NCBI GenBank assembly: GCA_020723385.1
Contig: DYIZ01000021.1
Coordinates: forward strand, 1-56,115
Direction: 5' to 3'
DNA from: Candidatus Aquidulcis sp.
Lineage (GTDB): Bacteria; Chloroflexota; Anaerolineae; Anaerolineales; UBA4823
DNA: 56,115 nt
In this document: piece after piece, positions 6,661 to 39,181 of the stretch
Layout of the letters: each line of letters begins with the position of its first letter
Position numbering within the stretch: the first letter of the stretch is position 1
The notes under the pieces: model-generated
Database searches by the model: none
What the model was told of the DNA's origin: nothing
What the model saw: the letters and a program-made list of their open reading frames with translations, nothing else
Position numbers and translations under genes: made by a program

Positions 6661-6743
6661 GGGCTGTTTTGCGGGGTGCAGGAATCAGGCCAGTACCTTG
6701 CGCTCATGGGATTGTAGCATGGGCGGAGGGGAGCGTCAATCGA

Positions 6744-6776
6744 AGACCCCAGGGGTTTTCGAAACCCCTGGGGTCT
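6744..6776. repeat. 33-bp palindrome, copy 1
   Basis: Arms AGACCCCAGGGGTTTT and the exact complement around a one-base centre. It has the same outline as the palindromes at 23113, 40050 and 45976 and the split copy at 49505. It lies between the vWA gene end and the propeller gene start, so it could terminate the former on the minus strand. Confidence 0.85.
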
Positions 6777-6911
6777 GGTTAATAACCCTTCCCCCGCTGG
6801 ATCATGGCGGGGGAAGGCAGGCGGAGGAGTAGAGGATGCCCGGATGTCAGTGTCGTAGTAGGCCCTCGACAATATATATACTACTGAGACGCCTAAAAGG
6901 TTGACTGACTC

Positions 6912-8189: not shown

Positions 8190-8290
8190 ATCTGCCTCCT
8201 TTGATGGGTACTTAGAATATACCGCAGAAGGCAGAATACAGCTTGACAGCTTGTTGACATTGAGATGATAGTCAATCCCCAATAAGTCGA

Positions 8291-8666
8291 TCAAGACTTA
8301 ATTTCGATGATATTCTCGATTTCTTCCAATACCGTGAAAAGGTCTGGAGCGCCTGCCGCCTGAACGATATTTTCCCCAACATGTTTATGGTGCGGCGCAG
8401 TAGGCAAATTGGAAAAATGCGGAGCGTTGTCGTAACGAAAAACCAGCGACCCATCGGCGCGCTGGTAGTGGTATGTATGCCTTCTTGACACGTCTCCCCG
8501 AGCCAATGAACAGCTCGCGGAAGTGCAGAAGCGAGTTGTCAATAAAGTAGATATCGGCGCGTACAAACCAAACTTCGCCGCGATCATCAACCGATAAAAT
8601 GGGTTGAGCAACGAACGGCGAAGCAGAAAGCGCATCTCGAATCTTTTTGAGATAGCGATCAGTCAA
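8291..8666 (-). pseudogene. TumE-like toxin (DUF6516) with an internal frameshift
   Basis: The first frame, starting with TTG at 8666, gives MTDRYLKKIRDALS...LHFRELFI...KKAY. The family continuation YHYQRADGSLVFRYDNAPH is found in the next frame, ending at 8291 with NIIEIKS. Together they match the DUF6516/TumE toxin layout (about 120 residues), a family of small toxins paired with a DNA-binding or stabilising antitoxin. The break lies near 8475. One base too many or two too few there separates the frames. The TTG start overlaps the antitoxin stop by 8 bp. Either the toxin is inactivated, or the shift is a sequencing error or is bypassed. Ongoing translation through the shift is unproven. Confidence 0.7.
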
Positions 8667-8949
8667 GCCTGGCTTCCTTCAATGATTGACGCTGCGCTTC
8701 CAAATGACGCAAAGCTTCGACTTCCATCCACCAATCGAGATTGTCGAGCGTTTCTTCGATTTCCCCGGCTTTGAATTTACGTTCAAAATCATCCGAAGTC
8801 ATGCTGTAACGCGTTTCGTAAGGTTCGAGCGCTTGACGAGTGCGTTGTATCGCGTGATCGAGCAGTTTGGCCTCGCGTTTAATAGCCGACTCAAGTAATG
8901 GTTTGAGGCGTCTGGCGTCATTTGTGCGAACGGTTACTTGTTGAAGCAT
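8659..8949 (-). CDS. TumA-like antitoxin of a TumA/TumE pair
   Basis: A 96-residue, charged and mostly helical protein (LLESAIKREAKLLDHAIQRT...FEETLDNLDWWMEVEALRHLEAQ). It sits directly upstream of and overlaps the DUF6516 toxin frame, the standard order for this type of toxin-antitoxin pair. The start is set at MLQQVTV because GAGGAG lies 8 nt upstream. Identification rests on gene order and the tryptophan-rich acidic segment seen in antitoxins of this type, so it is a family-level call. No separate DNA-binding domain is evident. It may be retained because a functional or leaky toxin remains, or simply be recently orphaned. Confidence 0.6.
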   Translation of the reverse strand: MLQQVTVRTNDARRLKPLLESAIKREAKLLDHAIQRTRQALEPYETRYSMTSDDFERKFKAGEIEETLDNLDWWMEVEALRHLEAQRQSLKEARLD

Positions 8950-16583: not shown

Positions 16584-17729
16584 TCAGATAACCGGGACCG
16601 ATATTTCTATCGGCTCGATCACACCGATACCCTGAGAAATATTCTTCAACCTGGCAAGCATGAGAAAATTAATGATCTGCCCCTTGGGCACCAAAAGCAT
16701 ACCGTTTCTAGCGAGGATATCATTAGAGACGATCATGCCGGTTTTCAGTTCATCCAACCCGACGTTCATGATTTGGAACGTATCTTTTGGTTTGATCGGC
16801 CGACATGCCAGCACTTCAAGCAAATCTGGGTTGTATTCCTTGGCATGGGAATATAACCTGGAAATAGCCGAAGGTATAGATAATCCTCTACTGATCAACA
16901 CATCAAAATCCATAGCGATCTTGAGTATTTGAGCGCCGATCAATATTGAATATTCATCGGGATTTTGCTCAGGCAATGGGAGTGCTTGATACGGCTCTAA
17001 TTGTTTGGATATCATTTTCGAGATGATTTCCAAGCGGGGAATGTTGGCAAGCAGTTGGCTACTGACCAATGGGAACGAGTTATATAAATCTGTCTCACCT
17101 GCAGAAAGCTGCTTATTTTGATACACCTTTGTAAGGGTATCTGGAGGCAAAATGACACAACCGATGAGTGAAAGCATCGCCGCGATCTCGTATCGCCATA
17201 TATTTTGCAGCCTCATCTCCGTCGCCAATTGTTTTACGATACCCCTAAGACGGGAAGAGCGACAGAATGCTTCAGGATTCAATATACTCAGCACATCGGT
17301 GAGAACTTTGATACTACCGCTAAGGGTTTTTTCCAATAATTCTCGTTCCGCTACCACAAGTTCATATTGAACAATCCCGGCACGGATAGCTTTTTCAAAC
17401 AGTTCGGGTGGGCAAGGTTTAGTGAGAAAGCGGAAAATGTTGCCTTCATTGACGGCATCAATAGCTGTTTGTTGTTCTGCATTTCCGGTGAGCATGATTC
17501 GTACTGTGTCGGGCATCAATTCTTTTACTTTTACCAGAAATTCTATACCATCCATCTCTGGCATACGCATATCTGCTACTACAACATAATAGGGACCTTC
17601 CCGTTTCATGATCTCAAGGCCTTCGATGCCATTTGATGCTACGTCCAGGACAAAGTCCTTACGGAATTCGCGTTTATAGGCGGCTAGAACACTTGGATCA
17701 TCATCTACAAAAAGGATTTTTTCATTCAT
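16584..17729 (-). CDS. Response regulator with degenerate HD-type output domain
   Basis: A 381-residue protein: receiver domain (1-125, phospho-accepting Asp53 in VVADMRMPEMD, Lys in TKPCP), then a helical output domain (about 145-340) resembling an HD/HD-GYP domain. The expected metal-binding HD pair is missing, with MLSLIGCVILPP where active relatives carry His-Asp. It is therefore likely a signalling scaffold and not a c-di-GMP phosphodiesterase. The start at MNEKILF has GGAGAAGG upstream and overlaps the stop of the HDOD regulator by 8 bp. It is the last gene of a three-gene operon with a five-PAS kinase and an HDOD regulator. Confidence 0.75.
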   Translation of the reverse strand: MNEKILFVDDDPSVLAAYKREFRKDFVLDVASNGIEGLEIMKREGPYYVVVADMRMPEMDGIEFLVKVKELMPDTVRIMLTGNAEQQTAIDAVNEGNIFRFLTKPCPPELFEKAIRAGIVQYELVVAERELLEKTLSGSIKVLTDVLSILNPEAFCRSSRLRGIVKQLATEMRLQNIWRYEIAAMLSLIGCVILPPDTLTKVYQNKQLSAGETDLYNSFPLVSSQLLANIPRLEIISKMISKQLEPYQALPLPEQNPDEYSILIGAQILKIAMDFDVLISRGLSIPSAISRLYSHAKEYNPDLLEVLACRPIKPKDTFQIMNVGLDELKTGMIVSNDILARNGMLLVPKGQIINFLMLARLKNISQGIGVIEPIEISVPVI

Positions 17730-18936
17730 AACCTTCTCCACGATTGACGGCATCTTTGCAATAATCACGCCAAGGGGCCAAATCTTCCCCCAGACCAGCA
17801 TCGAAGAGGTATGTTGTATCTGGTATGGGCTTGACCCCTGTCATATTCTTTGGGTAAATATCATAATCTAGCGTATTTGCCAGATGTACTGCGGTTAGTG
17901 AAAGAGATTTCTCGCCGTTGTATAAACCGGGATGATGATGAAATGCAACTGCATCAACCGTTGGCGCCGGCAATCCCCAAATTCCCAGGAGATAGGCCCC
18001 AACTTTCGCATGAGACACGCCAAAAATGCTACGTTCTGCTTCATCCATCCCCACCTTTTTCCTGTTTGCGACCTCGGTTGCGATAAAATACTGGCCTGGA
18101 AAGTTGCTTGCCAGGATCAGTTTACCGATATCATGGAGGATTCCCGCGATAAATGCATTATCGGCCTCTTTTCTGTTAGCGAGGATCCCCTGAACAATAC
18201 ATCTGGAAAATGTCGCCACGGTTAAGCTATGATTCCACAGATTGTGAAGGGACAGGCGCTCAAGAATACTTTTATTAAACTGATCGAATATGGATACTGA
18301 GAGAACCAGCGACCGAATCGTATCCAGACCTAGTAAAACAACCGCCTGAGCAGGACTGGAGATATGCCCACTTAGCCCGAAAAAGGCAGAATTGGCCAAC
18401 TGGAGAATTTTAGCACTCATACCAATGTCGCGAGCGATAATCTGGCCGATTTTGCCTGGCGAAGCATCTGGAGAATCGATTTCTTGGGTCAATTCTGAAT
18501 AGAGCGTTGGCAAGCTAGGCACAGTTTTCATGCGGGAAACCAGTTGTTGAAGCTCCTGATTCCCCATAATTTCTTGCATCCCACAGGCCCGTTGGATCGC
18601 TGCTTTCAATTTATCTGCATCGCATGGCTTTGAGATGAATTGGTGTGCAAACTTGAGAGCCTGAAAACCAATGTCAGTGTCGGTGTAGCCTGATAACGCG
18701 ATGCGGACAATACGGGGATACAATTCATAGACATAGCGCAGTAACTCCACACCGCTCATCTCGGTCATACACATGTCGGACACCACAACGTCGAAGGATT
18801 CCTGAGCCAGCTGGTTCAGCGCATCTTGTCCGGTGTTCGCATAAGCCACATCCCATTCATAGCGCATTGAATGAAGCATCCTTTGCAAGCCTTGTAAAAC
18901 ACTTAGTTCGTCGTCAACAAATAATATTTTTTTCAT
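17722..18936 (-). CDS. Response regulator with HDOD output domain
   Basis: A 404-residue protein: receiver domain (1-125) with phospho-accepting Asp54 in VVSDMCMTEMSG and the KPCD lysine, followed by an HDOD domain (about 135-335: VPSLPTLYSELTQEIDS, LKILQLANSAFFGL-like helices, GILHDIGKLI and SHAKVGAYLLGIW). HDOD domains are HD-related but usually non-catalytic and act in signalling hubs. The segment HDIGKL is HD-like here, so residual hydrolase activity cannot be excluded. Start and stop overlap both neighbours (ATGA with the kinase), which indicates translational coupling and a shared phosphorelay. Confidence 0.88.
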   Translation of the reverse strand: MKKILFVDDELSVLQGLQRMLHSMRYEWDVAYANTGQDALNQLAQESFDVVVSDMCMTEMSGVELLRYVYELYPRIVRIALSGYTDTDIGFQALKFAHQFISKPCDADKLKAAIQRACGMQEIMGNQELQQLVSRMKTVPSLPTLYSELTQEIDSPDASPGKIGQIIARDIGMSAKILQLANSAFFGLSGHISSPAQAVVLLGLDTIRSLVLSVSIFDQFNKSILERLSLHNLWNHSLTVATFSRCIVQGILANRKEADNAFIAGILHDIGKLILASNFPGQYFIATEVANRKKVGMDEAERSIFGVSHAKVGAYLLGIWGLPAPTVDAVAFHHHPGLYNGEKSLSLTAVHLANTLDYDIYPKNMTGVKPIPDTTYLFDAGLGEDLAPWRDYCKDAVNRGEGYE

Positions 18937-26901: not shown

Positions 26902-28404
26902 ATGGCTTCTAAAGACAGTTTACAAATTGGCGTGAGCCGCCCGGAATTACCTCTCGATGACCTACCAACACCAGAGGAGGTCTTTAATGTCCCTAAATTG
27001 AATTGGGGGCAGGTTTTCAAGTTCGTGCTCGGCCCCAGCATGATTGCCCTGGGCGCCTCGATCGGCAGCGGTGAGTGGCTGCTCGGACCGCTTGCTTTCG
27101 GCAAATATGGCTTCATGGGTCTCGGTTGGCTAATCACCATCGCCGCCGTTTTGCAGACCTTCTACAACATGGAAGTCGCCCGCTTTACCATGGCGACAGG
27201 CGAGGTTCCGTCGGTCGCTTTCAGCCGTACCCCGCCCGGCAAAGCTTTCTGGCTGCCCTTCACTCTGATCATAATCTACCTCGGCTGGATCTGGGGTGGT
27301 TGGGCCTCTACCGCCGGGCAAGGACTGTTTGCCCTGTTTGTTGGCCGGCCAAACGTCAAAGAAGAGTTGGAAGTAGTACGCATTATCGCTATCGGTTTGA
27401 TGATGCTATCGCTTGGCTTATTTCTGTTCGGGAAAAAAGTTTCCGAAACGCTGGAGAAGTTCAACACCTGGGCTGTATGGTTCGTGATGATTTTTGTCAT
27501 CGCCGTCACTGTCGCAATTGTCCCGGCCTCATATTTGGGCAGCGCGCTGGCCTCGGCTGTCATCCCGGCTCGCATCCCGGCCGGCATGGATATAACCCTG
27601 CTGGGCGGGATCATCGGTTATACCGGGTTTGCCGCCGGCTTCAACTTTATGCTGATCAATTACTACCGCGACAAGGGTTACGGCATGGGTCACAAGGTGG
27701 GCTTTATCGCTGGCTTGTTGGGTGGAAAGAAAAAAGATGTGCTTCCCAGCGGCGTCACCTTCCGGGAGAGCGAGAAGAACACCTCCTTGTGGAATCGCTG
27801 GTGGCGTTACCTGGCTATGGACCAGTGGGGTATCTTCTTCGTCGGCGCGATGCTGGGCATGTTCATCCCCTCCATCATGGTGGCTTATCTTACTACGATA
27901 CCGGGCGCTGGCATTCCCGAAAAAGCCAACATGCCGATCTACGCCGCCACAGAATTGGGACGCAACTATGGGCAGTGGCTATTCATTCTGACCCTGCTGG
28001 TCGGCACCTTCACCCTGTTCAAAACCCAGGCCACGATCCTCGAGATGGTCATCCGCAACACGGCAGACTCGGCTTACGCCATGTTTCCCAAGCTGCATGA
28101 ATGGACCAAGGGCGACATGCGCAAGTTCTACTACCTGGTGGCGGTCGTGATTATTTTGTTGATCGCGATCATCATTCACCTGGCCTTGCCGACAGAACTG
28201 TTGATAATCTCGTCCAATATGTCGAACCTGGCTGGGGTGATTTTCCCGCTGATCATGATCTACCTGAACTCCAAGCTGCCCTACCCGGCCCGCGCCAAGT
28301 GGTGGAGCATCCTGGTTCTGGTCATCTTTGCCCTGTTCTCCGGCTTCTTCTTCGCCAACTTTGTCTCTGTTCAATTCTTCAAGGTGCCGCTGGTGAAATT
28401 CTAG
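26902..28404 (+). CDS. Nramp-like transporter 1 without canonical metal site
   Basis: A 500-residue membrane protein with about eleven helices and the Nramp (SLC11) fold. In helix 1 the family motif DPGN is replaced by GASIGSGE (51-58). In helix 6 the metal-binding M-P-H segment is replaced by YTGFAAGFN. Both changes argue against Mn or Fe transport. It is encoded upstream of a two-component system, a second paralogue and lutABC, so an organic acid such as lactate is a plausible substrate (inference). AAGGAGGAAGGC precedes the ATG. A hairpin follows the stop. It is annotated as Nramp-family from overall sequence pattern only. Confidence 0.8.
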   Translation: MASKDSLQIGVSRPELPLDDLPTPEEVFNVPKLNWGQVFKFVLGPSMIALGASIGSGEWLLGPLAFGKYGFMGLGWLITIAAVLQTFYNMEVARFTMATGEVPSVAFSRTPPGKAFWLPFTLIIIYLGWIWGGWASTAGQGLFALFVGRPNVKEELEVVRIIAIGLMMLSLGLFLFGKKVSETLEKFNTWAVWFVMIFVIAVTVAIVPASYLGSALASAVIPARIPAGMDITLLGGIIGYTGFAAGFNFMLINYYRDKGYGMGHKVGFIAGLLGGKKKDVLPSGVTFRESEKNTSLWNRWWRYLAMDQWGIFFVGAMLGMFIPSIMVAYLTTIPGAGIPEKANMPIYAATELGRNYGQWLFILTLLVGTFTLFKTQATILEMVIRNTADSAYAMFPKLHEWTKGDMRKFYYLVAVVIILLIAIIIHLALPTELLIISSNMSNLAGVIFPLIMIYLNSKLPYPARAKWWSILVLVIFALFSGFFFANFVSVQFFKVPLVKF

Positions 28405-28430
28405 TACCGATTCAACGGCGGTCACACACC

Positions 28431-28478
28431 GGGGTGTTTCGAGTAAGTAACAGCTTGCTTGGAACACCCCCTTTGTTT
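28431..28478 (+). terminator. Hairpin after Nramp-like gene 1
   Basis: GGGGTGTT (28431-28438) pairs with AACACCCC (28463-28470), with an inner AAG/CTT pairing, followed by CTTTGTTT. A moderate rho-independent terminator. Confidence 0.55.
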
Positions 28479-28568
28479 GCCTGGATAGTGTTGTCCATCG
28501 GTCGTTCTGCGCGAGTCCCAGGGTTCCTATCAGTGATAGAATAAAACCTGTAGCCGTTAGAGGTGCTT

Positions 28569-30530
28569 ATGAGTGCTCAAGCTGCGAAACCGAATAGTGT
28601 CTCTACCTGGGCGCGGACAACTTTACCTCCCAGCGCTATTCGCACGCGCACCGGCTTGATTTTCTTTCTGGGCATATCCATCCTGATCTTGAGCACGGTG
28701 GGGGCCACAGTTTGGGTAAATTCCCTGGTCAATCAAGATGCTGAGAGGGCCACACTGCTAACCCGGCTCCAGGCGCAGGTGGTTGGATGGGGCGGACTCA
28801 CCCCTCAGCAGATGCAAACAACGCTGGCAGCGCGCGCGGAAATCACAGGGGCGCTGCAATCCCTCCTGGAGGGTGGAAAGCTGGCGCGGGGCGATGGTTC
28901 CACGCTCGAACTACCCCCTGAAGGAGATGAAACCCTGCTCCGACCGCTGCAAGAGGCCCTGGCAGCCTTATCGAGCCTGCAAATCTCCGGCGAAAATCTC
29001 CAGCAGGTGGAATCCGCTAAATCGGCCTTGCAAGCCGCGTTGAGCCAGGGATTGCAGATTGTCCAACTGCGCCGCTCGGAAAACTTGGGGATGGCGCGCG
29101 GACTTTATGCGGCCTTGTTTATCAGCATTACCTGTTTCCTCCTGGTGGGGCTGTGGTTTACCGAGGAATGGATTGCCAGGCCGCTGGAGGAACTGATTGA
29201 TATCACCTCCCGCATCAGCACCGGCGATTTGGATACCCCCATCCAACCCAGCGAAGGCCAGGAATTTGTCGAGGTGGTGGAGAGTCTCGAATCAATGCGC
29301 GTGGAACTGCGCGATTCCCGCGAAAAACTTGCTCGATGGGCAAAAGACCTGGAAGCGCGCGTGGCGCAACGCACACAGCAATTGATTGCACTCTCACGGG
29401 TTGTGACCGCGGCCAGCCGTTCCCAGGAGTTGGAACAGATTTTGCACACCGCTCTGGAACAGGCCCTGCAGGTCGTTGGGGTCGAGATGGGGGGCATCTG
29501 GTTGGTGGACGAAACCAATGGTCACTTATCCCTATCCGTCAGCCAGGGGATGTCGGAACAAATGCGGGAACATCTCCGCATTATCCAGGCTGGGGAAGGA
29601 ATTACGGGAGAGGCGGCCCGGTTGGGCGAAACCATCGTGCTTGAGGATATTGACCAATCTGCCCTGCGCGTAAAAATGCTGGCAACTTACGAGGAGTTAC
29701 GCAGCCTGGTAGCAGTTCCCATTCAGGTACATGACCGGGTTCTGAGCGTGCTGGATGTGATGACCCGCCAGCAGCGTTCTTTTAGCCCCGAAGAATTGAC
29801 CCTGCTAACCTCCATCGGTCAACAGATTGGCATCGGTATCGAAAACGCCCGCCTGATTCAGGAAATTCGCCAGCAGACCGAGCGCGTGGCCGCCTTGCAG
29901 GAACGCGATTGGATTAGCGCCGAACTGCACGATGGCCTGCTGCAAAGCCTGGGATATTTGTACCTGCAAGCCGACCAACTCGAAACCTTGTCCATCTCCA
30001 GGGATTGGCCTGAAATGGCGCAGAAGTTGGCCCACCAGCGCCAGGTTTTGGAGCAAATCTCCGGCGATATCCGGCGCTTTATTGCCGATTTGCGCAAGAC
30101 GCCCCCTCCCATGTCGCTCCAAAGCGCCTTGCAAAAAATGCTGGCCGACTTCAACCAAAAAACGCCGCTGGATGTCTCCCTGGAGATGGAGCAATCGTTG
30201 CGCCGGTTGAAAGCGGACCAGGTTGCCCACCTGGTTCGGATTGCCCATGAAGCCCTAATCAATGCCACCCAGCACGGACATGCAGGGAAAGTTTTCATCA
30301 CCTGCGCCATCTCGGGGGAACAGGGCGAACTAAGGATAGTGGATGATGGGGAAGGGTTTTCGCCTGAGTGGGTGCCGCCGCAGGGCGGCGAACACTTCGG
30401 GTTGAGCATCATGCGGGCGCGCGCGGCTCGCATTGGGGGAAATTTTTCATTGAGTTCCACGCCCGGCCAGGGAACCCGCATTTCCGTCACCTGGCCGCTG
30501 GAAATGGAACAGGAGGAATACCACCGATGA
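28569..30530 (+). CDS. NarX-type sensor histidine kinase with GAF domain
   Basis: A 653-residue membrane kinase: helix 1 (about 35-55), an extracytoplasmic helical region, helix 2 (about 180-200), HAMP, a coiled coil, a GAF domain (about 270-425), a HisKA_3 dimerisation domain with His454 in AELHDGLLQSLGYLY, and a HATPase domain (IAHEALINATQHG, DDGEGF). Such kinases signal to LuxR/NarL-type regulators, and one follows directly with an ATGA overlap. The start is set at the ATG with AGAGG 6 nt upstream instead of the adjacent GTG. Position between two transporters and lutABC suggests it senses the substrate of that pathway or a linked redox state. Confidence 0.9.
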   Translation: MSAQAAKPNSVSTWARTTLPPSAIRTRTGLIFFLGISILILSTVGATVWVNSLVNQDAERATLLTRLQAQVVGWGGLTPQQMQTTLAARAEITGALQSLLEGGKLARGDGSTLELPPEGDETLLRPLQEALAALSSLQISGENLQQVESAKSALQAALSQGLQIVQLRRSENLGMARGLYAALFISITCFLLVGLWFTEEWIARPLEELIDITSRISTGDLDTPIQPSEGQEFVEVVESLESMRVELRDSREKLARWAKDLEARVAQRTQQLIALSRVVTAASRSQELEQILHTALEQALQVVGVEMGGIWLVDETNGHLSLSVSQGMSEQMREHLRIIQAGEGITGEAARLGETIVLEDIDQSALRVKMLATYEELRSLVAVPIQVHDRVLSVLDVMTRQQRSFSPEELTLLTSIGQQIGIGIENARLIQEIRQQTERVAALQERDWISAELHDGLLQSLGYLYLQADQLETLSISRDWPEMAQKLAHQRQVLEQISGDIRRFIADLRKTPPPMSLQSALQKMLADFNQKTPLDVSLEMEQSLRRLKADQVAHLVRIAHEALINATQHGHAGKVFITCAISGEQGELRIVDDGEGFSPEWVPPQGGEHFGLSIMRARAARIGGNFSLSSTPGQGTRISVTWPLEMEQEEYHR

Positions 30531-31201
30531 ACAAAATCCGCATCCTGCTTGCCGACGACCATTCCCTGTTTCGGGAAGGGATTGCCGCCGTTTTGAACAA
30601 CCAGCCGGATATGGAAGTGGTTGGCGAGGCCAGCGATGGCCTGGAAGCCGTGATTTTGGCGCGCAATCTGCGGCCCGATGTCATTTTGATGGATGTCACC
30701 ATGCCAGGCACGGATGGGATCGAAGCCACCCGGCTGATTAAGCAGGAACAATCCGAGGTGCGGATTGTCATGCTCACCGTTCACGATGAACATGAGAACC
30801 TGTTCGACGCCATTCGCTATGGCGCTCAAGGCTATTTGCTGAAAACCATCCGCGCCCGCGAGTTGGTGGATATGCTTCATGCGGCCTACCAGGGAGAAGC
30901 CGCCGTGACGCCGGCCCTGGCCATGCGCATTATGGATGAATTTCGCCGCCTGACGGCCATTTTCCCGGCTGCTGCCGCTGACGAAGGTTCCAATATTGCC
31001 CTGTTGACGCCCCGCGAGCGCGAGGTGTTGACGCTCCTGGCGCGCGGCCTGAGCGACCGTGAGATTGCCCAGCAACTTACCGTCAGCCTGTACACCGTAA
31101 AATCTCACGTGCGGTCTGTCTTGCAAAAATTACAGGTCGCCAGCCGCCATGAAGCCGCCCGCCTGGCCCCACACGAACGACGCCCGAAGGATTCACATTA
31201 A
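30527..31201 (+). CDS. LuxR/NarL-family response regulator
   Basis: A 224-residue regulator: receiver domain (1-120) with phospho-accepting Asp56 in VILMDVTMPGTDG, Lys in LLKTI, and a C-terminal LuxR helix-turn-helix (LTPREREVLTLLARGLSDREIAQQL...TVKSHVRSVLQKL). It is the cognate partner of the NarX-type kinase, whose stop overlaps its start as ATGA. Likely targets are the two Nramp-like genes and lutABC; GAACTAGTTC is a candidate binding motif because it precedes both transporter genes, but this has not been shown. A longer open frame upstream (from 30368) lies inside the kinase gene and is discarded. Confidence 0.92.
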   Translation: MNKIRILLADDHSLFREGIAAVLNNQPDMEVVGEASDGLEAVILARNLRPDVILMDVTMPGTDGIEATRLIKQEQSEVRIVMLTVHDEHENLFDAIRYGAQGYLLKTIRARELVDMLHAAYQGEAAVTPALAMRIMDEFRRLTAIFPAAAADEGSNIALLTPREREVLTLLARGLSDREIAQQLTVSLYTVKSHVRSVLQKLQVASRHEAARLAPHERRPKDSH

Positions 31202-31293
31202 CCCTCACCCTGGCCCTCTCCTGAGGGGAGAGGGGATTAGGCGCTCCCTTCCCCCCTCGGGAGAAGGGCTGGGGATGAGGGTGTTTTTGCCAG
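31201..31293. repeat. Multi-stem palindromic repeat after the response regulator
   Basis: Outer ACCCTCA / TGAGGGT pair encloses two hairpins (CCCTCTCC...GGAGAGGG and CCCTTC...GAGAAGGG). Its right edge is followed by TTTTTG, so it may act as a terminator. It resembles widely dispersed CCCTCACCC-type repeats of unknown function. Confidence 0.75.
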
Positions 31294-31311
31294 GGCAAGT
31301 CGTCCAATCGA

Positions 31312-31321
31312 GAACTAGTTC
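31312..31321. promoter_or_regulatory. Palindrome GAACTAGTTC, candidate operator 2
   Basis: Second copy of the palindrome. Its downstream neighbourhood shares AAAATCAT, TGAA and CCAGGAGG blocks with copy 1 at 26687. Confidence 0.45.
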
Positions 31322-31420
31322 CCCGGCCCTCCAAAATCATCCTGAAATCATGCGCAGATGAAGCCAGGAGGAATGGTATTTCAACCTTCCCTGCGCTAAG
31401 ATTCTGAAGGAATGCAACCC

Positions 31421-32968
31421 ATGACTGAACCAGCCACTCCCCAACCGGCGCAAAAAGAAACTCTCTCGGGGCTTGAACCCTGGCAGGTGGGAGAACTGCC
31501 CCCCTTGCCAGTCGCCAGGGGCCTGAGTTTTTTGGGCATCCTGGGGCCGGGGGTGATTGTTTTGGGCGCGACCCTTGGCAGCGGCGAGTGGCTGCTCGGC
31601 CCGGCGACTTTTGTCAGGTATGGTCTTTCCTTGTTGTGGATTACCACCGCTGCGATTTTTCTCCAGACCATTTTCAACACCGAACTGATTCGCTACACCA
31701 TGTACACGGGCGAACCCGCCCTGACCGGTTTTATGCGTCTCAAGCCCAACTCGACCTTTTGGGCCTGGGTCTACGCCATTTTTTTCTTTTTCCAGGTCGG
31801 CTGGCCGGGCTGGGCCGGGGCCTCCGCCGGGGCGATTTTTTATCTTTTCGTGGGCCGCCTGGCCGGGAGCGCGGATACGCCGCTCGTCTATTGGATTGGG
31901 GTTGGCACGTTCCTGGCCTGTATTTTGATTTTGTTGTTTGGGCGACGCATCGAGCGCACGCTTGAAATCCTGAACTGGATTTTGATTTTTTTCATCCTGG
32001 GCGGGCTGGCCCTGCTCTGCTTCGCCTTTGCCGCCCCCGAGAAGTGGGGCGAGGCGCTGGCCGGGTTCGTCGGCTTTGCGCCACGCGCCGGAAAATTCAT
32101 CTTTATCCCCGAAGGGGCAGATTGGTTTTTGTTGAGCGCCTTTGCGGCCTATTCGGGGGCGGGGGGCGTGGTCAACCTGATGGTTTCCAGTTGGGCGCGC
32201 GATAAGGGCCTGGGCATGGCCGGGCAGGTCGGTTTCATCCCGGCTGCCATTGGCGCGCGCAAAGTCAACCTGAATCACATCGGCGCCCGCTTCGAGGTGA
32301 CACCCCAATCCCTGGCGCGCTGGAAACAATGGTGGCGGGTAGCCCAAATTGACCAATGGCTGGTGTTCGCTCTCGGGGCCATGCTTGGGATGGGGCTGCC
32401 AGCGATTCTTTACACCTCGTTCATCGAACCGGGCCGGGATATCCGCAGCGCGGCCATCGCCGCCGAACTATCTGCCGCCATGGCCACGCGCGGGATTGCC
32501 GTTTTTGCCTATCTGGTGGCGCTGATGGGCGCCTGGGTCTTGTTCAAGACGCAGCTCGACATCGTCGAGGGGATGGTGCGCTCGATGACCGATATTCTCT
32601 GGACTGGCAGCCGTCGCCTGCACAAACTGGCCGATGGGGATGTGCGCTACGTTTACTACGGCATCCTGGCGGCGGTTGTCGTCTGGGGAGTGCTGGCCCT
32701 GCGCCTGGCCCAGCCGATTATCTTGTTACAACTGGGCGCCAACATGGCCGGGATAGTTTTTATTATCAGCAGCCTGCACCTCCTTTACCTGAATACCCAT
32801 CTCCTGCCCAAAGAACTTCAACCTCCGTTGTGGCGGCGCATTGCCCTGGTTGCGCTGGCCCTGTTCTATGGTTTTTTTGTCTACGTCTGGTTGATGGGAG
32901 GCCTCGTCCCGGATTTCGACAAAGGCTTTTTGTTCAACATTCCCCAATACTTCAGTTCCAATCCTTAA
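31421..32968 (+). CDS. Nramp-like transporter 2 without canonical metal site
   Basis: A 515-residue, about eleven-helix Nramp-fold transporter, clearly paralogous to the one at 26902. Helix 1 reads GATLGSGEWLLGP (49-61) in place of DPGN. Helix 6 reads AYSGAGGVVNLMV in place of the metal-binding methionine and histidine. It ends 17 bp before lutA with no terminator between, so it is most likely co-transcribed with lutABC. The ATG at 31421 is preferred because GAAGGA is correctly spaced for it; an ATG three codons upstream touches the ribosome-binding site. Transport of lactate or a related acid is an inference from position. Confidence 0.82.
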   Translation: MTEPATPQPAQKETLSGLEPWQVGELPPLPVARGLSFLGILGPGVIVLGATLGSGEWLLGPATFVRYGLSLLWITTAAIFLQTIFNTELIRYTMYTGEPALTGFMRLKPNSTFWAWVYAIFFFFQVGWPGWAGASAGAIFYLFVGRLAGSADTPLVYWIGVGTFLACILILLFGRRIERTLEILNWILIFFILGGLALLCFAFAAPEKWGEALAGFVGFAPRAGKFIFIPEGADWFLLSAFAAYSGAGGVVNLMVSSWARDKGLGMAGQVGFIPAAIGARKVNLNHIGARFEVTPQSLARWKQWWRVAQIDQWLVFALGAMLGMGLPAILYTSFIEPGRDIRSAAIAAELSAAMATRGIAVFAYLVALMGAWVLFKTQLDIVEGMVRSMTDILWTGSRRLHKLADGDVRYVYYGILAAVVVWGVLALRLAQPIILLQLGANMAGIVFIISSLHLLYLNTHLLPKELQPPLWRRIALVALALFYGFFVYVWLMGGLVPDFDKGFLFNIPQYFSSNP

Positions 32969-32985
32969 AAGCATAAGGAGCCGAT

Positions 32986-33747
32986 ATGACCCAAAAAGTC
33001 CAATTGTTTATCACCTGCCTGGGAGAGCAATTCTACCCAACCGTGCTGGAAGGCATGGTAACGCTGCTGGAGCGGCTCGGCGTGGAATGCCAGTTCCCCA
33101 ACGCGCAGACCTGCTGCGGGCAGCCCTTCTATAACAGCGGTTTCCAGTCCGAAGCGGGCAAACTGGCGAAAACCTGGCTGCAAACCTTTGGGCAGAGCGA
33201 AGCCCCCATCGTCTCCCCCTCCGGCTCGTGCGTGGATATGGTACGACATCATTATCCCGAACTGTTCCCCGCCGGGACGCCGGAACACGCCCAGGCCGTC
33301 GCGATTGCCCAACGCACCTACGAATTCACCGAATACCTGGTGCATGTTCTCAATGTCACCGATGTCGGCGCTTATTTCCCCCACAAAGTCACCTATCACG
33401 CCTCCTGTCACGGGCTGCGTGGGCTGGGCTTGCGCACCGAAGCCAAACAACTCCTGGGGGCGGTGCGCGGCCTCGAAATGATTCCACTCAACGAGGAGGA
33501 AACCTGCTGCGGCTTTGGCGGGGTTTTCAGCGTGGTGTACCCCGAAGTCAGCCGGGCGATGATGCAGAACAAAGTCCAAAATATCCTCGCCAGCGGCGCG
33601 GAGATGGTGGTTGCCAGCGACGCGGGCTGCCTGATGAATATCGGCGGCGGCCTGCGCAAGGCTGGTTCATCCATGCGGGCTGTGCATACGATTGAAATCC
33701 TGGCAGCCAGCGAGTCGAATGGCGGCCTTAAGCGAGGTGCGCAATGA
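32986..33747 (+). CDS. lutA: Lactate utilisation protein LutA (CCG-domain Fe-S subunit)
   Basis: A 253-residue protein with two CCG domains: Cys43-Cys44 in QTCCGQPFYNSG and Cys174-Cys175 in EETCCGFGGVFSV, with Cys82 and Cys141 as further ligands. CCG domains hold [4Fe-4S] clusters in LutA/YkgE, part of the LutABC complex that oxidises L-lactate to pyruvate. The gene starts 17 bp after the transporter with AAGGAG before the ATG. It overlaps lutB as ATGA. Confidence 0.92.
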   Translation: MTQKVQLFITCLGEQFYPTVLEGMVTLLERLGVECQFPNAQTCCGQPFYNSGFQSEAGKLAKTWLQTFGQSEAPIVSPSGSCVDMVRHHYPELFPAGTPEHAQAVAIAQRTYEFTEYLVHVLNVTDVGAYFPHKVTYHASCHGLRGLGLRTEAKQLLGAVRGLEMIPLNEEETCCGFGGVFSVVYPEVSRAMMQNKVQNILASGAEMVVASDAGCLMNIGGGLRKAGSSMRAVHTIEILAASESNGGLKRGAQ

Positions 33748-35162
33748 GCGAAAGACCCACCTACATCAAGTTTGGAGAATACACCGAGCATATCCCGGCC
33801 AACATCCCGGCTGCGGTGCAACAAGCCACCGGGCGTTTCCTCGGCCTGCGTCAGATGCGCGTCTCCGAAATGCCCCAATGGGAGGAACTGCGCCAGGCGG
33901 CTTCCAATATCCGCCTGCACACCCTCGAAAACCTGGATTTCTACCTTGAAAAACTGGAACAAAACGTCCGCGCGGCGGGCGGGCAGGTGCATTGGGCCGC
34001 CGACGCCGCCCAGGCGCGCGCCACGGTGCTGGAGATTGCCAAAGAACACAACGTCAAACTGGCGGTCAAGGTCAAATCCATGGCGACCGAGGAGATTGGA
34101 CTGAACCATGCCCTCGAAGCGGCCGGCATCCAGACCTATGAAACCGATTTGGGCGAGTTCATCATCCAATTGATGGGCACCGGCCCCTCGCATATCATCG
34201 TCCCGGCGGTGCATCTCAAAAAGGAGGAAATCGCCGAGCTTTTCACCCAAAAATTGGGCGTCGAAGCGCCCCCCGACCCCGTCAAACTGACCGCCATCGC
34301 CCGCGCCACCCTGCGTGAGAAATTCCTTTCGGCGGAAATGGGCGTTTCGGGGGGCAACTTCCTCGTTGCTGAGACCGGCACGCTGGTCATCGTCACCAAC
34401 GAGGGCAACGGGCGCATGTGTACGACCATGCCCGACCTGCACGTGGCGGTGGTCGGCATTGACAAGGTTGTCCCCGATTGGGAGACGCTGACCGTGCTGC
34501 TCAAACTGCTGGCGCGCTCGGCCACCGGGCAAAAACTATCCACGTATACGGCCTTCATCAGCGGGCCGCGCCGGGCGGCGGGGGAGAACGGGCCAAAGGA
34601 ATTCCATCTCGTTTTGCTGGATAACGGGCGCAGCAAAATCCTGCAAGACCCGGTGGCGCGCGAAACGCTGAAATGTATCCGCTGCGGCTGCTGCCTGAAC
34701 GTTTGCCCGGTCTACAAAAATGTGGGCGGGTTCGCCTACGGTTGGTTCATCTCTGGCCCGGTGGGAGCGATTTTCTCCCCGCAAATCCTCGGCACCGAGG
34801 CGGCGCGCGAACTGCCCTTCGCCTCGTCGCTGTGCGGGGCTTGCGCTGATGTCTGCCCGGTAAAAATCCCCATCCCCAAGATTTTGCTGCACCTGCGCCG
34901 CCGGGTGGTCGAAGGCGACGAGTTCGCCCCCGCCTCCGCTCCGCTGATGGTGCGCGCCGGGGCCAAGCTGGGTACCTTTGCCCTGGGAGTTCCCTGGCTG
35001 TATCGTTTCGGCACGCGCCTGCTGCCCATTTTCACGGCCCCCTTCCGCAAAGACGGCTGGATGTCCAGCCTGCCCGCCCCGGCCAACCTGTGGACGAAAG
35101 TCCGCCCCTTCCCGGCTTTCCGGGCAAACTTCCGCCAGTGGTGGGCCAAGAGAACAAAGTGA
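33744..35162 (+). CDS. lutB: Lactate utilisation protein LutB (LUD domain plus ferredoxin-type clusters)
   Basis: A 472-residue protein: N-terminal LUD domain (about 60-300, KVKSMATEEIGLN and the VAETGTLVI segment). A ferredoxin-like part follows with Cys311, Cys314, Cys317 and Cys321 (CIRCGCCLNVCP) and a second set Cys364, Cys367, Cys371 (CGACADVCP). It passes electrons from lactate oxidation, with LutA and LutC. Translationally coupled to lutA. The C-terminal 90 residues are basic and Pro-rich and of the usual LutB type. Confidence 0.93.
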   Translation: MSERPTYIKFGEYTEHIPANIPAAVQQATGRFLGLRQMRVSEMPQWEELRQAASNIRLHTLENLDFYLEKLEQNVRAAGGQVHWAADAAQARATVLEIAKEHNVKLAVKVKSMATEEIGLNHALEAAGIQTYETDLGEFIIQLMGTGPSHIIVPAVHLKKEEIAELFTQKLGVEAPPDPVKLTAIARATLREKFLSAEMGVSGGNFLVAETGTLVIVTNEGNGRMCTTMPDLHVAVVGIDKVVPDWETLTVLLKLLARSATGQKLSTYTAFISGPRRAAGENGPKEFHLVLLDNGRSKILQDPVARETLKCIRCGCCLNVCPVYKNVGGFAYGWFISGPVGAIFSPQILGTEAARELPFASSLCGACADVCPVKIPIPKILLHLRRRVVEGDEFAPASAPLMVRAGAKLGTFALGVPWLYRFGTRLLPIFTAPFRKDGWMSSLPAPANLWTKVRPFPAFRANFRQWWAKRTK

Positions 35163-35169
35163 GGCTGAT

Positions 35170-35811
35170 ATGACAATTCCAACCAGCAACCCTGTACTCG
35201 AGAACCTGCGCCGCTCGCTGGGGCGCAGACCCGGCGACCCGGTTCCGCCCCGTCCGGCCATCCTGCCCCCTCGTCCAGCCGCCGCGCCCGAGGCCGAACT
35301 TGACCTGCTCTTGAGCGAAATCACCAAACTTTCGGGCGTGACCCAACGCCTGACCTCCGCCGAAATCGATTCGGCTCTCTCTGCGTTGCTCCTGGCCCAG
35401 GAGGTGAAAAAAGCCACCTTGTGGCCTACGCCCGGTCTGGCTGAACTCAAAATCGAGACGCGCTTGCGCCAATTGGGCGTGGAAATCGTCTCACCCTACG
35501 CCGACAAACAAGCCCTGGGGCAATGTGACCTGGGTGTGACCGAAGTGAGTTTTGCCCTGCCCGAAACCGGCACGCTGGCGCTGCTTTCGGACGGCGAAAG
35601 GCCGCGCGCCGTCTCGCTCGTGCCGCGCGTCCATCTCGCCATCCTGCGCCCGTCCGCTTTGCGCGCCGACCTGCACCAGATTTTTCTCGAAGCGAAAAAC
35701 CACCATTACATGATTTTCATCACCGGCCCCAGCCGCACCGCCGATATCGAACTGACCGTTACCCTGGGCGTGCATGGGCCGAAGGCGTTGTACGTGTGGG
35801 TTATGGAATAG
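35170..35811 (+). CDS. lutC: Lactate utilisation protein LutC (LUD domain)
   Basis: A 213-residue LUD-domain protein: a Pro-rich N-terminus, then LGVEIVSPYADKQALGQCDLGVTEVSFALPETGTL, and the closing FITGPSRTADIELTVTLGVHGP typical of LutC/YkgG. It has no Fe-S cysteine motif, as expected. GAGG lies 5 nt before the chosen ATG, and the gene begins 7 bp after lutB. It closes the transporter-lutABC operon; no clear terminator follows. Confidence 0.92.
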   Translation: MTIPTSNPVLENLRRSLGRRPGDPVPPRPAILPPRPAAAPEAELDLLLSEITKLSGVTQRLTSAEIDSALSALLLAQEVKKATLWPTPGLAELKIETRLRQLGVEIVSPYADKQALGQCDLGVTEVSFALPETGTLALLSDGERPRAVSLVPRVHLAILRPSALRADLHQIFLEAKNHHYMIFITGPSRTADIELTVTLGVHGPKALYVWVME

Positions 35812-36241: not shown

Positions 36242-39181
36242 ATGACCGACGAGAATAAAGCCTCAAGCCAGACGCCCGATGCCGAAGAATCCTGGTACAC
36301 CCTTGAAGCTGAAGATATTTTGACTCAATTGGCGACTTCACTCGAAACGGGCCTTTCCTCCGAGGAAGCCAGTCAGCGGCGAGAAAAGTATGGATTCAAT
36401 CAACTCACCGAAGCGCCTCGACCATCTTTCTTGAAGCTGCTCCTTGAGCAGTTCAACAACTTTATCGTTATTTTGCTCATCGTCGCGGCCGTCATCTCGG
36501 CGCTGCTCGGCGAGTGGGTGGATTCAGCCGCCATTATGTCCATCGTGATCTTGAACGCCACCCTGGGAGTAGTCCAGGAGCGGCGCGCCGAAGAAGCGTT
36601 AGCGGCTTTGAAGAAGCTGGCCGCACCGGATGCACAAGCCCTGCGCGACGGCCACCGGCAAATTGTGCCGGCCCGCGAGCTGGTACCGGGCGATGTAGTC
36701 TTTATCGAAGCGGGTAACTACATCCCGGCAGACGTGCGCCTGCTGGAGGCGGTCAATCTGCGAGTGGAGGAGGCCGCCCTCACCGGGGAATCCGTCCCGG
36801 TCCAAAAGGATGCCAATATCCGGCTAGAATCGAACGTGCCGCTGGGCGACCGCAAGAATACCGCTTTCATGGGCACACTCGTCAACTACGGGCGCGGGCG
36901 CGGCGTTGTGACCAGCACGGGCATGCACACCCAAATCGGCCTGATTGCCGAGATGTTGCAACAGGTCGAAGAAGAACAGACCCCGCTGCAACGGCGGCTC
37001 GACCAATTGGGCAAGCTCCTGGGTTGGGCGGCGTTAGCCGTTTGCGGGCTGGTGTTCGTGGTGGCTGTTTTTCGGAACACAGACCTGGGGATGCTGCGCG
37101 GGCCGGGCGGTGGGCTGCTGGCATATCTCGACCATGCCAAAGAGCAGCTCGTCGAGATCTTCATGCTGGCGGTTGGGCTGGCGATTGCCGCCGTACCCGA
37201 AGGGCTCCCGGCAGTCGTGACGATCAGCCTGGCATTGGGGATGCGCGAGATGGTTCGCCGCCACGCCCTGATCCGCAAGCTCTCCTCGGTCGAGACGCTC
37301 GGCTCGACCACCACCATCTGCTCCGACAAAACCGGCACGCTGACCCAGAACGTCATGACGGTCACTCGCCTGTGGAGCGACGGCGCGTCCATCAACATTA
37401 CGAGCAAAGGCCACACCCTCGAGGGTGAATTCTCGGTCAACGGCAAGCCGGTGGATTTGGTCAATTACCAGTCGGCGCTGACGACTCTGTGGGTTGGCGC
37501 GCTGAATAACGATGCCGAGATGGAAATCTCCGGCGAGACCGAGGGAGGCGCTACCTACCGGATGGTAGGCGACCCCACCGAGGGATCGCTGCTGGTTGCG
37601 GCTGCCAAGGCCGGTGCGCTGCCCCGCCCGCTGAACCAGGCTTACCCTCGGGTCAACGAAGTCCCCTTTGACTCCGGCCGCAAGCGGATGATCACCATCC
37701 ACCATATCAAAGACCCCCGCCCGGAGGATATTTCACCCTTCGACGAACAGAAGCGCTACAAAGGGTACGTTGTCGCCGTCAAAGGCGCCCCAGACCTGGT
37801 GCTCAATCTTTGCACGCATTACCAACGCACGGACGACACTTCCGCCCCATTGGATGAAAACCAGCGCATGCGCATCCTGGCAGCCAACGACGCCATGACT
37901 CAGGATGCTTTGCGGGTGTTGGGCGTGGCGTACCGCGTCGTTCCCGAAATTCCTGATACAACCAATGTGGCTGCCATCGAGAAAGATTTGATCTTTGTGG
38001 GGCTGGTGGGCATGATAGACCCCGCCCGGCCCGAGGTAGGCCCTGCCCTGGCGAACGCCGCCAAAGCAGGTATCCGCACCATTATGATTACCGGCGACTA
38101 TCCGAACACAGCACGCGCTATCGCCGAGGGCATCGGCCTGCTGCGCCCGGGGCACCAGGTGCTCACAGGCCGCGACCTGGATTCGTTGGATGACGAACAA
38201 ATGCAGCGCGAGGTCATGCGCACCGATGTATTTGCCCGCGTCTCGCCGGAACACAAAATGCGCATCGTGGATGCGCTGCGCGCTAACAACCAGGTGGTCG
38301 CCATGACCGGCGACGGCGTGAACGATGCGCCATCCATCAAACGCGCCGACATCGGCGTGGCGATGGGCATCACCGGCACGGATGTCGCCAAAGAGTCCGC
38401 TGACATGGTGCTCACCGACGATAATTACGCCAGTATCGTATCGGCGGTCGAGCAGGGGCGCGTCATTTACGATAACATACGCAAGTTCGTGTTCTTCCTG
38501 CTCTCGTCAAACGTGGCCGAGATCATGATCATCTTCCTGGCGACGCTGGCCGGGCTGCCTTCCCCGCTGACGGTCATCCAGCTTTTGTGGCTGAATTTGC
38601 TCACTGATGGCGCGCCTGCCCTGGCGTTAGCCATGGAAAAAGGCGATCCCACGATCATGAATCGCAGCCCGCGTCCCGCCAAAGAGCCGATCATCAACCG
38701 CTCGATGCAGTTGGGCATCCTCATCCAGACCATCACACAGACCGGATCGGTGTTGACCGCGTTTGCGATTGGCCTGCTGTGGCACCTGGGCGCCGGCGAC
38801 GGCATCCCGGCGGGCGTCAATCCATTGGCGTTCTTGCTAAGCTATGATTGGAGCACCGTGGATGTACAAACCGCCGAAACGATGGCGTTTGTCACCCTGT
38901 CATTGTGCGAGCTGTTCCGCGCTTACACCGTCCGCTCTGAACGGGTTTCCATCTTCCGGCTGGGCGTCTTTACGAACAAGTATATGCAGTACGCAGTTGG
39001 GCTTTCGGTAGTTCTGCTGCTGCTCGTCGTCAGCGTGCCGTTCTTGCAGCCTATCTTCAACACGCACTTCCCCAATCTACGCGAATGGGGTGTGGTTCTG
39101 GGATTGTCTGTCATTCCGGCAGTTTCCGAGGAAATAACGAAGGCTTACCTGCGTTGGCGAGACCGGAAGCGCGCCCGCTAG
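36242..39181 (+). CDS. P2-type cation-transporting ATPase
   Basis: A 979-residue P-type ATPase: actuator-domain TGES (181-184), phosphorylated Asp362 in SDKTGTLTQN, ATP-binding KGAPDLVL, hinge GDGVNDAPSIKRADIG, and about ten transmembrane helices. Helix 4 holds PEGLP and helix 6 holds NLLTDGAPALALAME, the pattern of Ca-type P2 pumps. Ion choice (Ca, or Na/K) cannot be fixed from this view. The N-terminus has the cation-ATPase N domain (GLSSEEASQRREKYGFNQL). GGAGA precedes the ATG. It stands alone, with a 16-bp palindrome CGGTTGCGCGCAACCG 65 bp after its stop. Confidence 0.93.
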   Translation: MTDENKASSQTPDAEESWYTLEAEDILTQLATSLETGLSSEEASQRREKYGFNQLTEAPRPSFLKLLLEQFNNFIVILLIVAAVISALLGEWVDSAAIMSIVILNATLGVVQERRAEEALAALKKLAAPDAQALRDGHRQIVPARELVPGDVVFIEAGNYIPADVRLLEAVNLRVEEAALTGESVPVQKDANIRLESNVPLGDRKNTAFMGTLVNYGRGRGVVTSTGMHTQIGLIAEMLQQVEEEQTPLQRRLDQLGKLLGWAALAVCGLVFVVAVFRNTDLGMLRGPGGGLLAYLDHAKEQLVEIFMLAVGLAIAAVPEGLPAVVTISLALGMREMVRRHALIRKLSSVETLGSTTTICSDKTGTLTQNVMTVTRLWSDGASINITSKGHTLEGEFSVNGKPVDLVNYQSALTTLWVGALNNDAEMEISGETEGGATYRMVGDPTEGSLLVAAAKAGALPRPLNQAYPRVNEVPFDSGRKRMITIHHIKDPRPEDISPFDEQKRYKGYVVAVKGAPDLVLNLCTHYQRTDDTSAPLDENQRMRILAANDAMTQDALRVLGVAYRVVPEIPDTTNVAAIEKDLIFVGLVGMIDPARPEVGPALANAAKAGIRTIMITGDYPNTARAIAEGIGLLRPGHQVLTGRDLDSLDDEQMQREVMRTDVFARVSPEHKMRIVDALRANNQVVAMTGDGVNDAPSIKRADIGVAMGITGTDVAKESADMVLTDDNYASIVSAVEQGRVIYDNIRKFVFFLLSSNVAEIMIIFLATLAGLPSPLTVIQLLWLNLLTDGAPALALAMEKGDPTIMNRSPRPAKEPIINRSMQLGILIQTITQTGSVLTAFAIGLLWHLGAGDGIPAGVNPLAFLLSYDWSTVDVQTAETMAFVTLSLCELFRAYTVRSERVSIFRLGVFTNKYMQYAVGLSVVLLLLVVSVPFLQPIFNTHFPNLREWGVVLGLSVIPAVSEEITKAYLRWRDRKRAR

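Follow-up and report, generated by a model that had tools for sequence, protein, structure and literature searches.

Nramp-fold carriers with a GSGE motif beside lutABC in Chloroflexota, candidate importers of short 2-hydroxyacids

Gene content of the locus

A stretch of 56,115 nucleotides from Candidatus Aquidulcis sp. (Chloroflexota, class Anaerolineae; GenBank assembly GCA_020723385.1, contig DYIZ01000021.1; the whole stretch is here called the window) contains two genes for predicted Nramp-fold carriers, which we call NrA and NrB, together with genes for a sensor kinase, a response regulator, and LutABC. In the list of open reading frames (ORFs), all seven genes lie on the forward strand between 26902 and 35811, in the following order:

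26902..28404, +: NrA, predicted Nramp-fold carrier of 500 amino acids (aa)
28431..28470, +: hairpin of 18 pairs directly 3′ of NrA, possible terminator or attenuator
28563..30530, +: sensor kinase of 655 aa with HAMP, GAF, HisKA_3, and HATPase domains (Pfam)
30527..31201, +: NarL-type response regulator (ATG at 30527)
31412..32968, +: NrB, predicted Nramp-fold carrier of 518 aa
32986..33747, +: LutA, two CCG cysteine-rich stretches (PF02754, 112.2 bits)
33744..35162, +: LutB, LUD domain and 4Fe-4S dicluster (TIGR00273, 479.6 bits)
35170..35811, +: LutC of 213 aa, LUD domain (PF02589, 74 bits)

NrB and lutA are separated by 17 base pairs (bp) and read in the same direction, as an earlier note made from the sequence had it; the genes, coordinates, and strand that it gave are also confirmed on the ORFs. 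The spacing is similarly tight elsewhere: A 4-bp overlap joins lutA to lutB and likewise the kinase stop to the regulator ATG, and the gap from lutB to lutC is 7 bp. Because of the strong hairpin at 28431-28470, NrA may form a transcription unit separate from the kinase; the region has 12 terminator-like sites, against 12.2 expected from shuffled sequence. The three lut genes are adjacent, LutB scores above the equivalog cut-off of TIGR00273 (444.8 bits), LutA has the CCG stretches, and LutC has the LUD domain. By analogy with the known family, these proteins would oxidize L-lactate.

The kinase has two hydrophobic segments (by eye) ahead of its HAMP domain. It scores 166.7 of the 553 bits required by the NarQ equivalog model and 111.4 of the 578 required by NarX, with best stretches starting at residues 367 and 186, respectively. 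Its likeness to NarX is thus confined to the part that starts near residue 186; the term NarX-type, used in the earlier note, describes that part of the protein and misses the equivalog cut-off. Among kinase relatives, the length of the periplasmic part differs, down to about 30 residues in the L107 kinase, which has lost length in other parts as well; the second hydrophobic segment, by contrast, shows strong conservation. We did not adopt the name of nitrate or lactate sensor for the kinase: Both NarX and NarQ scores fall far under their cut-offs, and the periplasmic part is variable. For the role of substrate sensor that the note gave it, the argument comes down to position in the locus. Our guess is that the kinase senses within the membrane or via a partner carrier.

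Family and fold of the carriers

The Pfam model for Nramp proteins (PF01566) has no match anywhere in the window genome, with neither NrA nor NrB detected at an E-value of 1, and it is also silent on five of their relatives (L045, L047, L074, L127, and L146). Controls from the same class score 450 bits (MntH) and 336 bits (an NRMT-like protein) on this model. The NCBIfam model NF037982, titled "Nramp family divalent metal transporter" (Nramp_1; cut-off 50), gives 156.5 bits for NrA and 155.2 bits for NrB, and a profile search finds no further match to it in the window genome. The amino-acid permease model PF13520 (cut-off 27 bits) gives 9.7 bits for NrA and no match for NrB. Searches of PDB sequences with NrA, NrB, and an alignment returned no Nramp match. 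By sequence, therefore, the two carriers count as Nramps only in part.

In the AlphaFold models, the predicted local distance difference test (pLDDT) is 88.1 for NrB and 90.2 for NrA, and the predicted template modeling score (pTM) is 0.90 for each. Compared with DraNramp, the NrB model has a Z-score of 32.6 and a root mean square deviation (rmsd) of 2.9 over 376 residues at 14% identity, and the NrA model has a Z-score of 32.2 and an rmsd of 3.1 over 379 residues. Solved Nramp structures top the match lists of both models. The best non-Nramp entries reach Z-scores of 25.7 (NrB) and 26.2 (NrA), and some Nramp entries score no higher than these. On the predicted structures, NrA and NrB have the Nramp version of the LeuT fold. 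The two Nramp-fold transporters announced in the earlier note are thus borne out by predicted structure and by NF037982, but not by PF01566, which detects neither.

In a quick tree, NrA-type proteins (19 rows) and NrB-type proteins (65 rows) form separate clades, with Shimodaira-Hasegawa-like approximate likelihood-ratio test (SH-aLRT) supports of 100 and 98 and with long-branch warnings. The NrA-type clade of this tree comprises Chloroflexota only, although NrA relatives outside the phylum may have been missed since the genome scan was ranked by NrB; the NrB-type clade includes Gemmatimonadota, Acidobacteriota, and others. Judged from the tree, the two carriers are old paralogues.

The helix 1 motif

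Helix 1 reads GASIGSGEW in NrA (G55, S56, G57, and E58) and GATLGSGEW in NrB (G56, S57, G58, and E59), so that the motifs GASIGSGE and GATLGSGE named in the earlier note are both present. A profile comparison with 14 MntH proteins of the class aligns helix 1 and places NrB G56-S57-G58-E59 on MntH D54-P-G-N57. The structural alignment begins in the matching register of DraNramp D56-N59 (residue 44 on 44). In DraNramp, an Asp, an Asn, and a Met are reported to bind the metal, and the D56A mutant to give no metal transport (PMC10185341).

The motif is almost without variation. Across 97 readable rows of the 99 in the family alignment, G56, G58, and E59 are invariant, and residue 57 is S in 87 rows and G in 10. 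L045, L047, and L155 are too remote to be included in this count; GSGE occurs in L045 and L047 as well, but not in L155. Neither the DxxN of Nramps nor the DxxG of NRMT proteins is present in helix 1 in any of the 97 rows. The break of helix 6 in the NrB model, at 248-251, has small residues: A Met is found there in two of 99 rows, at position 250. At position 253, just past the break, it is found in 18 of 99. The helix 6 motif of Nramps is A/CxxM, and because the MntH profile alignment fails in this helix, no single residue is assigned to M230. The earlier note had described the carriers as having lost the Nramp motifs. DPGN is indeed absent and GSGE stands in its place, a state better put as a separate branch with a motif of its own.

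The GSG sequence has an apparent parallel in another family with the LeuT fold. In AdiC-like transporters, a helix-breaking GSG binds the α-carboxylate of the substrate, by current proposals via backbone amides (PMC5877779; PMC5803215). Our structural alignments to AdiC begin on its residue 10, at residue 41 of the NrB model and residue 40 of the NrA model; carrying this register on from the start of the alignment to the motif, we infer that GSG seems to coincide with AdiC G25-S26-G27. It is reasonable to suppose from this likeness that the site has been rebuilt for carboxylates, in which case E59 would be the coupling group.

Linkage to 2-hydroxyacid oxidation genes within the class

We compared the window with 12 other NrA or NrB loci from 10 genomes of the class, 10 of them placed by genome search (L061 and L101 via their copies L046 and L039) and two, L054 and L107, by record title. 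Those copies were omitted, as were L044, a contig of 3 kb, and L053, with 95% identity to the window; L045, L047, and L048 are related only very remotely and are also outside the count. Three of the loci (L040, L041, and L042) come from one genome, G137, in which the stretches L041 and L042 overlap on a single contig.

LutABC, GlcDEF-type 2-hydroxyacid oxidases, or both are encoded at eight of the 12 loci, representing six of the 10 genomes. In L043 and L107, the order is kinase, regulator, NrA, NrB, and lutABC; in L101, NrA and NrB are followed by lutABC and a glcF-like gene; and in L042, NrA is followed by lutABC and by glcF- and glcDE-like genes. The L107 and L101 stretches reach contig ends. 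Glycolate-oxidase-type genes occur in the other four (L054, L041, L061, and L040). Those of L041 are glcDE-like genes directly upstream of NrB, and those of L061 and L040 are separated by some 3-4 kb from the Nr gene and encoded on the other strand. The most telling locus is L054, where NrA, a single small ORF, kinase, regulator, and NrB are followed by glcF, glcDE, and a glycerate kinase gene in place of lutABC. Since their scores fall under the cut-offs, the names of these L054 genes are approximate: GlcF has 309.5 bits (cut-off 333), the GlcD-GlcE fusion 534 (568) and, for its GlcE part, 216 (284), and the glycerate 2-kinase-like protein 200 (550).

At the remaining four loci (L049-L052), which belong to the same family as the window, the NrA relative is flanked by GAF/Cache sensor genes, and hydroxyacid-oxidation genes are absent. 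Seven of the eight gaps there are <25 bp, with one overlap, and Pfam showed no kinase domain in the flanking GAF or dCache proteins.

As controls we used 20 windows (19 genomes; 9-20 kb, six of them <15 kb) around other Nramp-model matches in the class, all of which are MntH-like or NRMT-like, including a fragment in L175. Two of the 20 contain a weak match (27% to GlcDE; 40% to glycerate kinase), and lutABC is found in none. Fisher's test gives P = 0.0015 by locus (8/12 vs. 2/20) and P = 0.009 by genome (6/10 vs. 2/19), both values being guides only, since the loci share ancestry and the test followed sight of the pattern. In addition, L054, which is itself one of the 12 cases and so matches itself, supplied the probes for GlcF, GlcDE, and glycerate kinase. 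The near-empty control windows make chance linkage within the class unlikely.

Three loci have peculiarities of their own. In L101, an 820-aa ORF directly after lutC (6246-8708) combines a TerC membrane domain with a GlcF-like iron-sulfur/CCG part. NrB of L041 (7765-9296) appears as two ORFs that overlap but differ in frame, owing to a frameshift or an assembly error. L053 is labeled Blastopirellula marina, yet its NrB is 95% identical to that of the window and is accompanied by the same kinase and regulator and by the lut genes; either the label is probably mistaken or the bin is mixed.

The view from the lut genes

Seen from the other side, the carriers are an optional partner of lutABC. LutB is found in 86 of 199 genomes of the class (E-value of 1e-100 or better) and GSGE-type carriers, by our reading of the search matches, in six (G000, G085, G098, G118, G137, and G155). 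Five of these six genomes have LutB, and in four, the window genome included, it is adjacent to the carrier. No GSGE carrier was found at 20 other lutABC loci of the class, which were picked by hand with exclusion of the genomes already known to have Nr-lut pairs, so that this absence is in part an effect of the selection. By a crude hydropathy screen, only two of the same 20 loci have a gene for a multi-spanning membrane protein within 5 kb. At L185, an NRMT-like Nramp gene with an NDAGG helix 1 motif (17177-18487) lies ∼8 kb from lutABC, with a second match beside it.

Matches to LctP-family lactate permeases occur at three places in the window genome; one is complete, the other two are fragments at the ends of contigs, and the stretches around them contain no lut or Nr genes. 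Used as probes, these three sequences matched none of 104 Nr stretches, although distant LctP proteins may escape them. The window genome also has one further strong LutB-like match, within a 734-aa frame. In the window itself, a 979-aa ORF 3′ of lutC (36242-39181) looks by eye like a P-type cation ATPase.

Relatives beyond the class

Among GTDB species genomes, 345 relatives were found, and the following figures use the best 80, ranked by NrB. By record titles, the GSGE branch is present in at least Chloroflexota, Gemmatimonadota, Acidobacteriota, and Poribacteria. LutB is encoded at 14 of the best 80 loci, namely L053, L101, L107, and 11 loci of Gemmatimonadota, in which it lies up to about 9 kb from NrB in a gene order partly shared by descent. 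A separate check for LutB in 49 genomes covered 50 of the 80 loci and retained all 13 LutB loci then known, with L053 excluded; its result, LutB beside NrB in 13 of 24 LutB genomes, is inflated by that choice, and 14 of 80 loci is the figure to use. Most of the NrB relatives kept thus lie elsewhere, and we rejected lut linkage as a rule for the whole branch. The co-occurrence with lut genes that the earlier note had put forward for checking across genomes is accordingly conserved within the class, with lutABC beside the carriers in four other genomes (L042, L043, L101, and L107), but is not universal.

Outside the class, the neighbors are heterogeneous. In an 11-locus cluster of Gemmatimonadota, NrB relatives (∼60% identity) stand directly behind an S9-peptidase-type gene (Pfam, one member, L074), which in six loci (L074, L075, L080, L089, L090, and L092) overlaps NrB by about 28 bp; this suggests another substrate context. 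SMP-30/gluconolactonase genes stand beside carriers in two Poribacteria, an M20 and an S58 peptidase gene elsewhere, and a D-serine-dehydratase-type enzyme and a class-V aminotransferase are encoded in L131. In two closely related Poribacteria loci, a gene of the malate/L-lactate dehydrogenase family (Ldh_2) ends <10 bp upstream of the carrier. In two of 10 further phylum loci (L148 and L153), a gene ∼3 kb away combines LutB- and LutA-like parts. A plasmid search with NrB gave four records, all <60% identical and one with at least 80% coverage. One NrB relative of an environmental clade comes from a metagenome-assembled genome labeled Klebsiella pneumoniae (L082), a doubtful label.

Proposed role of the carriers

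We consider it moderately probable that NrB, and probably NrA, import short 2-hydroxymonocarboxylates that LutABC oxidizes, with GSGE as a carboxylate site and the kinase and regulator as a switch. L-lactate would be the first substrate, with glycolate-type acids in relatives, and LutABC would then convert the imported lactate to pyruvate. In place of the DPGN metal site, the unwound GSG would hold the substrate carboxylate by its backbone amides, as in amino-acid permeases, and the invariant E59, at the position of the metal-binding Asn59, is a candidate site for proton or cation coupling. The kinase-regulator pair would switch the gene set on when substrate is present. The earlier note had proposed that this Nramp branch moves lactate or a similar hydroxy acid. 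Linkage within the class, the exchange of lutABC for glycolate-type genes, and the carboxylate-like motif speak for this idea, as do the tight co-directional spacing, the LutB genes near NrB in Gemmatimonadota, the Ldh_2 genes in Poribacteria, the Gly at the metal-site Asp, and the precedent of PxpT. Lactate is nevertheless not the whole story because most of the wider NrB branch has no link to lut genes. The strong linkage of the carriers to oxidases is limited to the class, and we have widened the substrate, as a hypothesis, to 2-hydroxymonocarboxylates.

Several observations weigh against this role. Three of the eight positive loci are from one genome (G137). Within the class, lutABC often occurs without GSGE carriers (86 vs. 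six of the 199 genomes); L195 and L203 have closely related lutABC genes (60%-68% identity) without a carrier, and L203 has the same lutABC-glcF-glcDE set. With its LctP matches, the window genome need not depend on NrA and NrB for lactate uptake. Outside the class, LutB is missing above 400 bits in 25 of 49 genomes with NrB relatives, and peptidases or unrelated genes neighbor many carriers. There are also metal-related neighbors, an HMA P-type ATPase (L071) and a CusF/SCO1 protein (L060), to which the TerC domain of the L101 fusion ORF may be added, and E59 could bind a cation instead.

A more general proposal, which we make tentatively and lean slightly against, is that the whole Nramp-fold branch consists of hydroxy-acid symporters, with GSG and a coupling Glu, and that the two paralogues and the kinase form an exchangeable module placed before different 2-hydroxyacid oxidases. 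Alternatively, the substrate range of the branch might be wider (other carboxylates, amino acids, pyruvate, or sugar acids), with the lut and glc contexts as one specialization. The peptidase, SMP-30/gluconolactonase, D-serine-dehydratase-type, and class-V aminotransferase neighbors outside the class fit such a range, as do the genomes without strong LutB. We nevertheless regard it as unlikely, given that all eight class loci outside the Cache group carry 2-hydroxyacid oxidases, and of two different systems.

Two old paralogues that share a single kinase-regulator pair also raise the idea that one carrier is a transporter-like sensor working with the kinase and the other the importer. UhpC, paired with the kinase UhpB, is an example of such a sensor. 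The position of NrA relatives between GAF/Cache sensor proteins in all four loci of the same family agrees with this division of labor, and so does the strong conservation of the second hydrophobic segment of the kinase beside a variable periplasmic part. Yet both window carriers keep the GSGE motif, and G137 reverses the arrangement of the window, with NrA <10 bp from lutA (L042) and NrB <10 bp from the kinase gene (L041). A sensor among the two carriers is in our judgment improbable, and fixed roles, NrA as sensor and NrB as importer, were rejected for this inconsistency across genomes.

We give equally little credence to the carriers still being divalent-metal importers, as the NCBIfam name says, supplying for example iron for the iron-sulfur Lut proteins. 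The Nramp fold, the metal-related neighbors named above, and an E59 able to ligate a cation would suit this function, and the Nramp relative YcsG, encoded in an organic-acid operon, is reported as a Mn2+ importer (PMC10448178). Against it, helix 1 lacks both the DxxN of Nramps and the DxxG reported for NRMT proteins (PMC8806188), and the Asp whose replacement by Ala stops transport in DraNramp is a Gly here.

If import of 2-hydroxymonocarboxylates by NrB and NrA is correct, a whole branch is misannotated as "Nramp family divalent metal transporter", a few residue changes in helix 1 switch one fold between carboxylate and metal substrates, and uncultured Chloroflexota have a lactate/glycolate uptake system.

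Comparison with known systems

The closest precedent for an Nramp relative linked to organic acids, though a disputed one, is by analogy the PxpT/YcsG pair. PxpT of C. glutamicum is described as 50% identical to YcsG, with its best TCDB matches in the Nramp family, and its deletion as stopping growth on 5-oxoproline, a defect that was complemented (PMC13274462). The same YcsG is assigned to Mn2+ import in the report cited above (PMC10448178). Like NrB, these proteins are Nramp relatives in a carboxylate-catabolism operon, and the YcsG entry 9a52 ranks high among the structural matches (Z-scores of 29.1 for NrB and 30.2 for NrA); this entry is an integrative model rather than a structure solved by crystallography or cryo-EM. 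They differ from our carriers in operon, in substrate, and in length (436 aa for PxpT). An "Nramp outgroup" has been discussed that may connect the metal carriers with carriers whose substrates are not metals (Shin et al. 2014; PMC4072509). A literature search over titles and abstract openings, with most subscription journals outside its coverage, found no Nramp-type protein tied to lactate or glycolate operons.

Canonical Nramp/MntH (SLC11) proteins such as DraNramp have their fold in common with NrB but DPGN where NrB has GSGE. The NRMT magnesium transporters, with EleNRMT, are likewise reported to form a branch of the Nramp fold in which the ion site has been rebuilt (PMC8806188); they retain the helix 1 Asp (DxxG), which the GSGE branch does not, and the class relative that scores 336 bits on PF01566 is close to EleNRMT. 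AdiC and the SLC7 carriers have the LeuT fold with GSG in the broken helix 1, apparently in the same register, and AdiC is for both models a weaker overall match than DraNramp (Z-scores of 23.8 for NrB and 25.1 for NrA). The oxidation genes lutABC, or lldEFG, are known in a pairing with an LctP-type permease; at the locus described here, the same genes are present and Nramp-fold carriers fill the permease slot.

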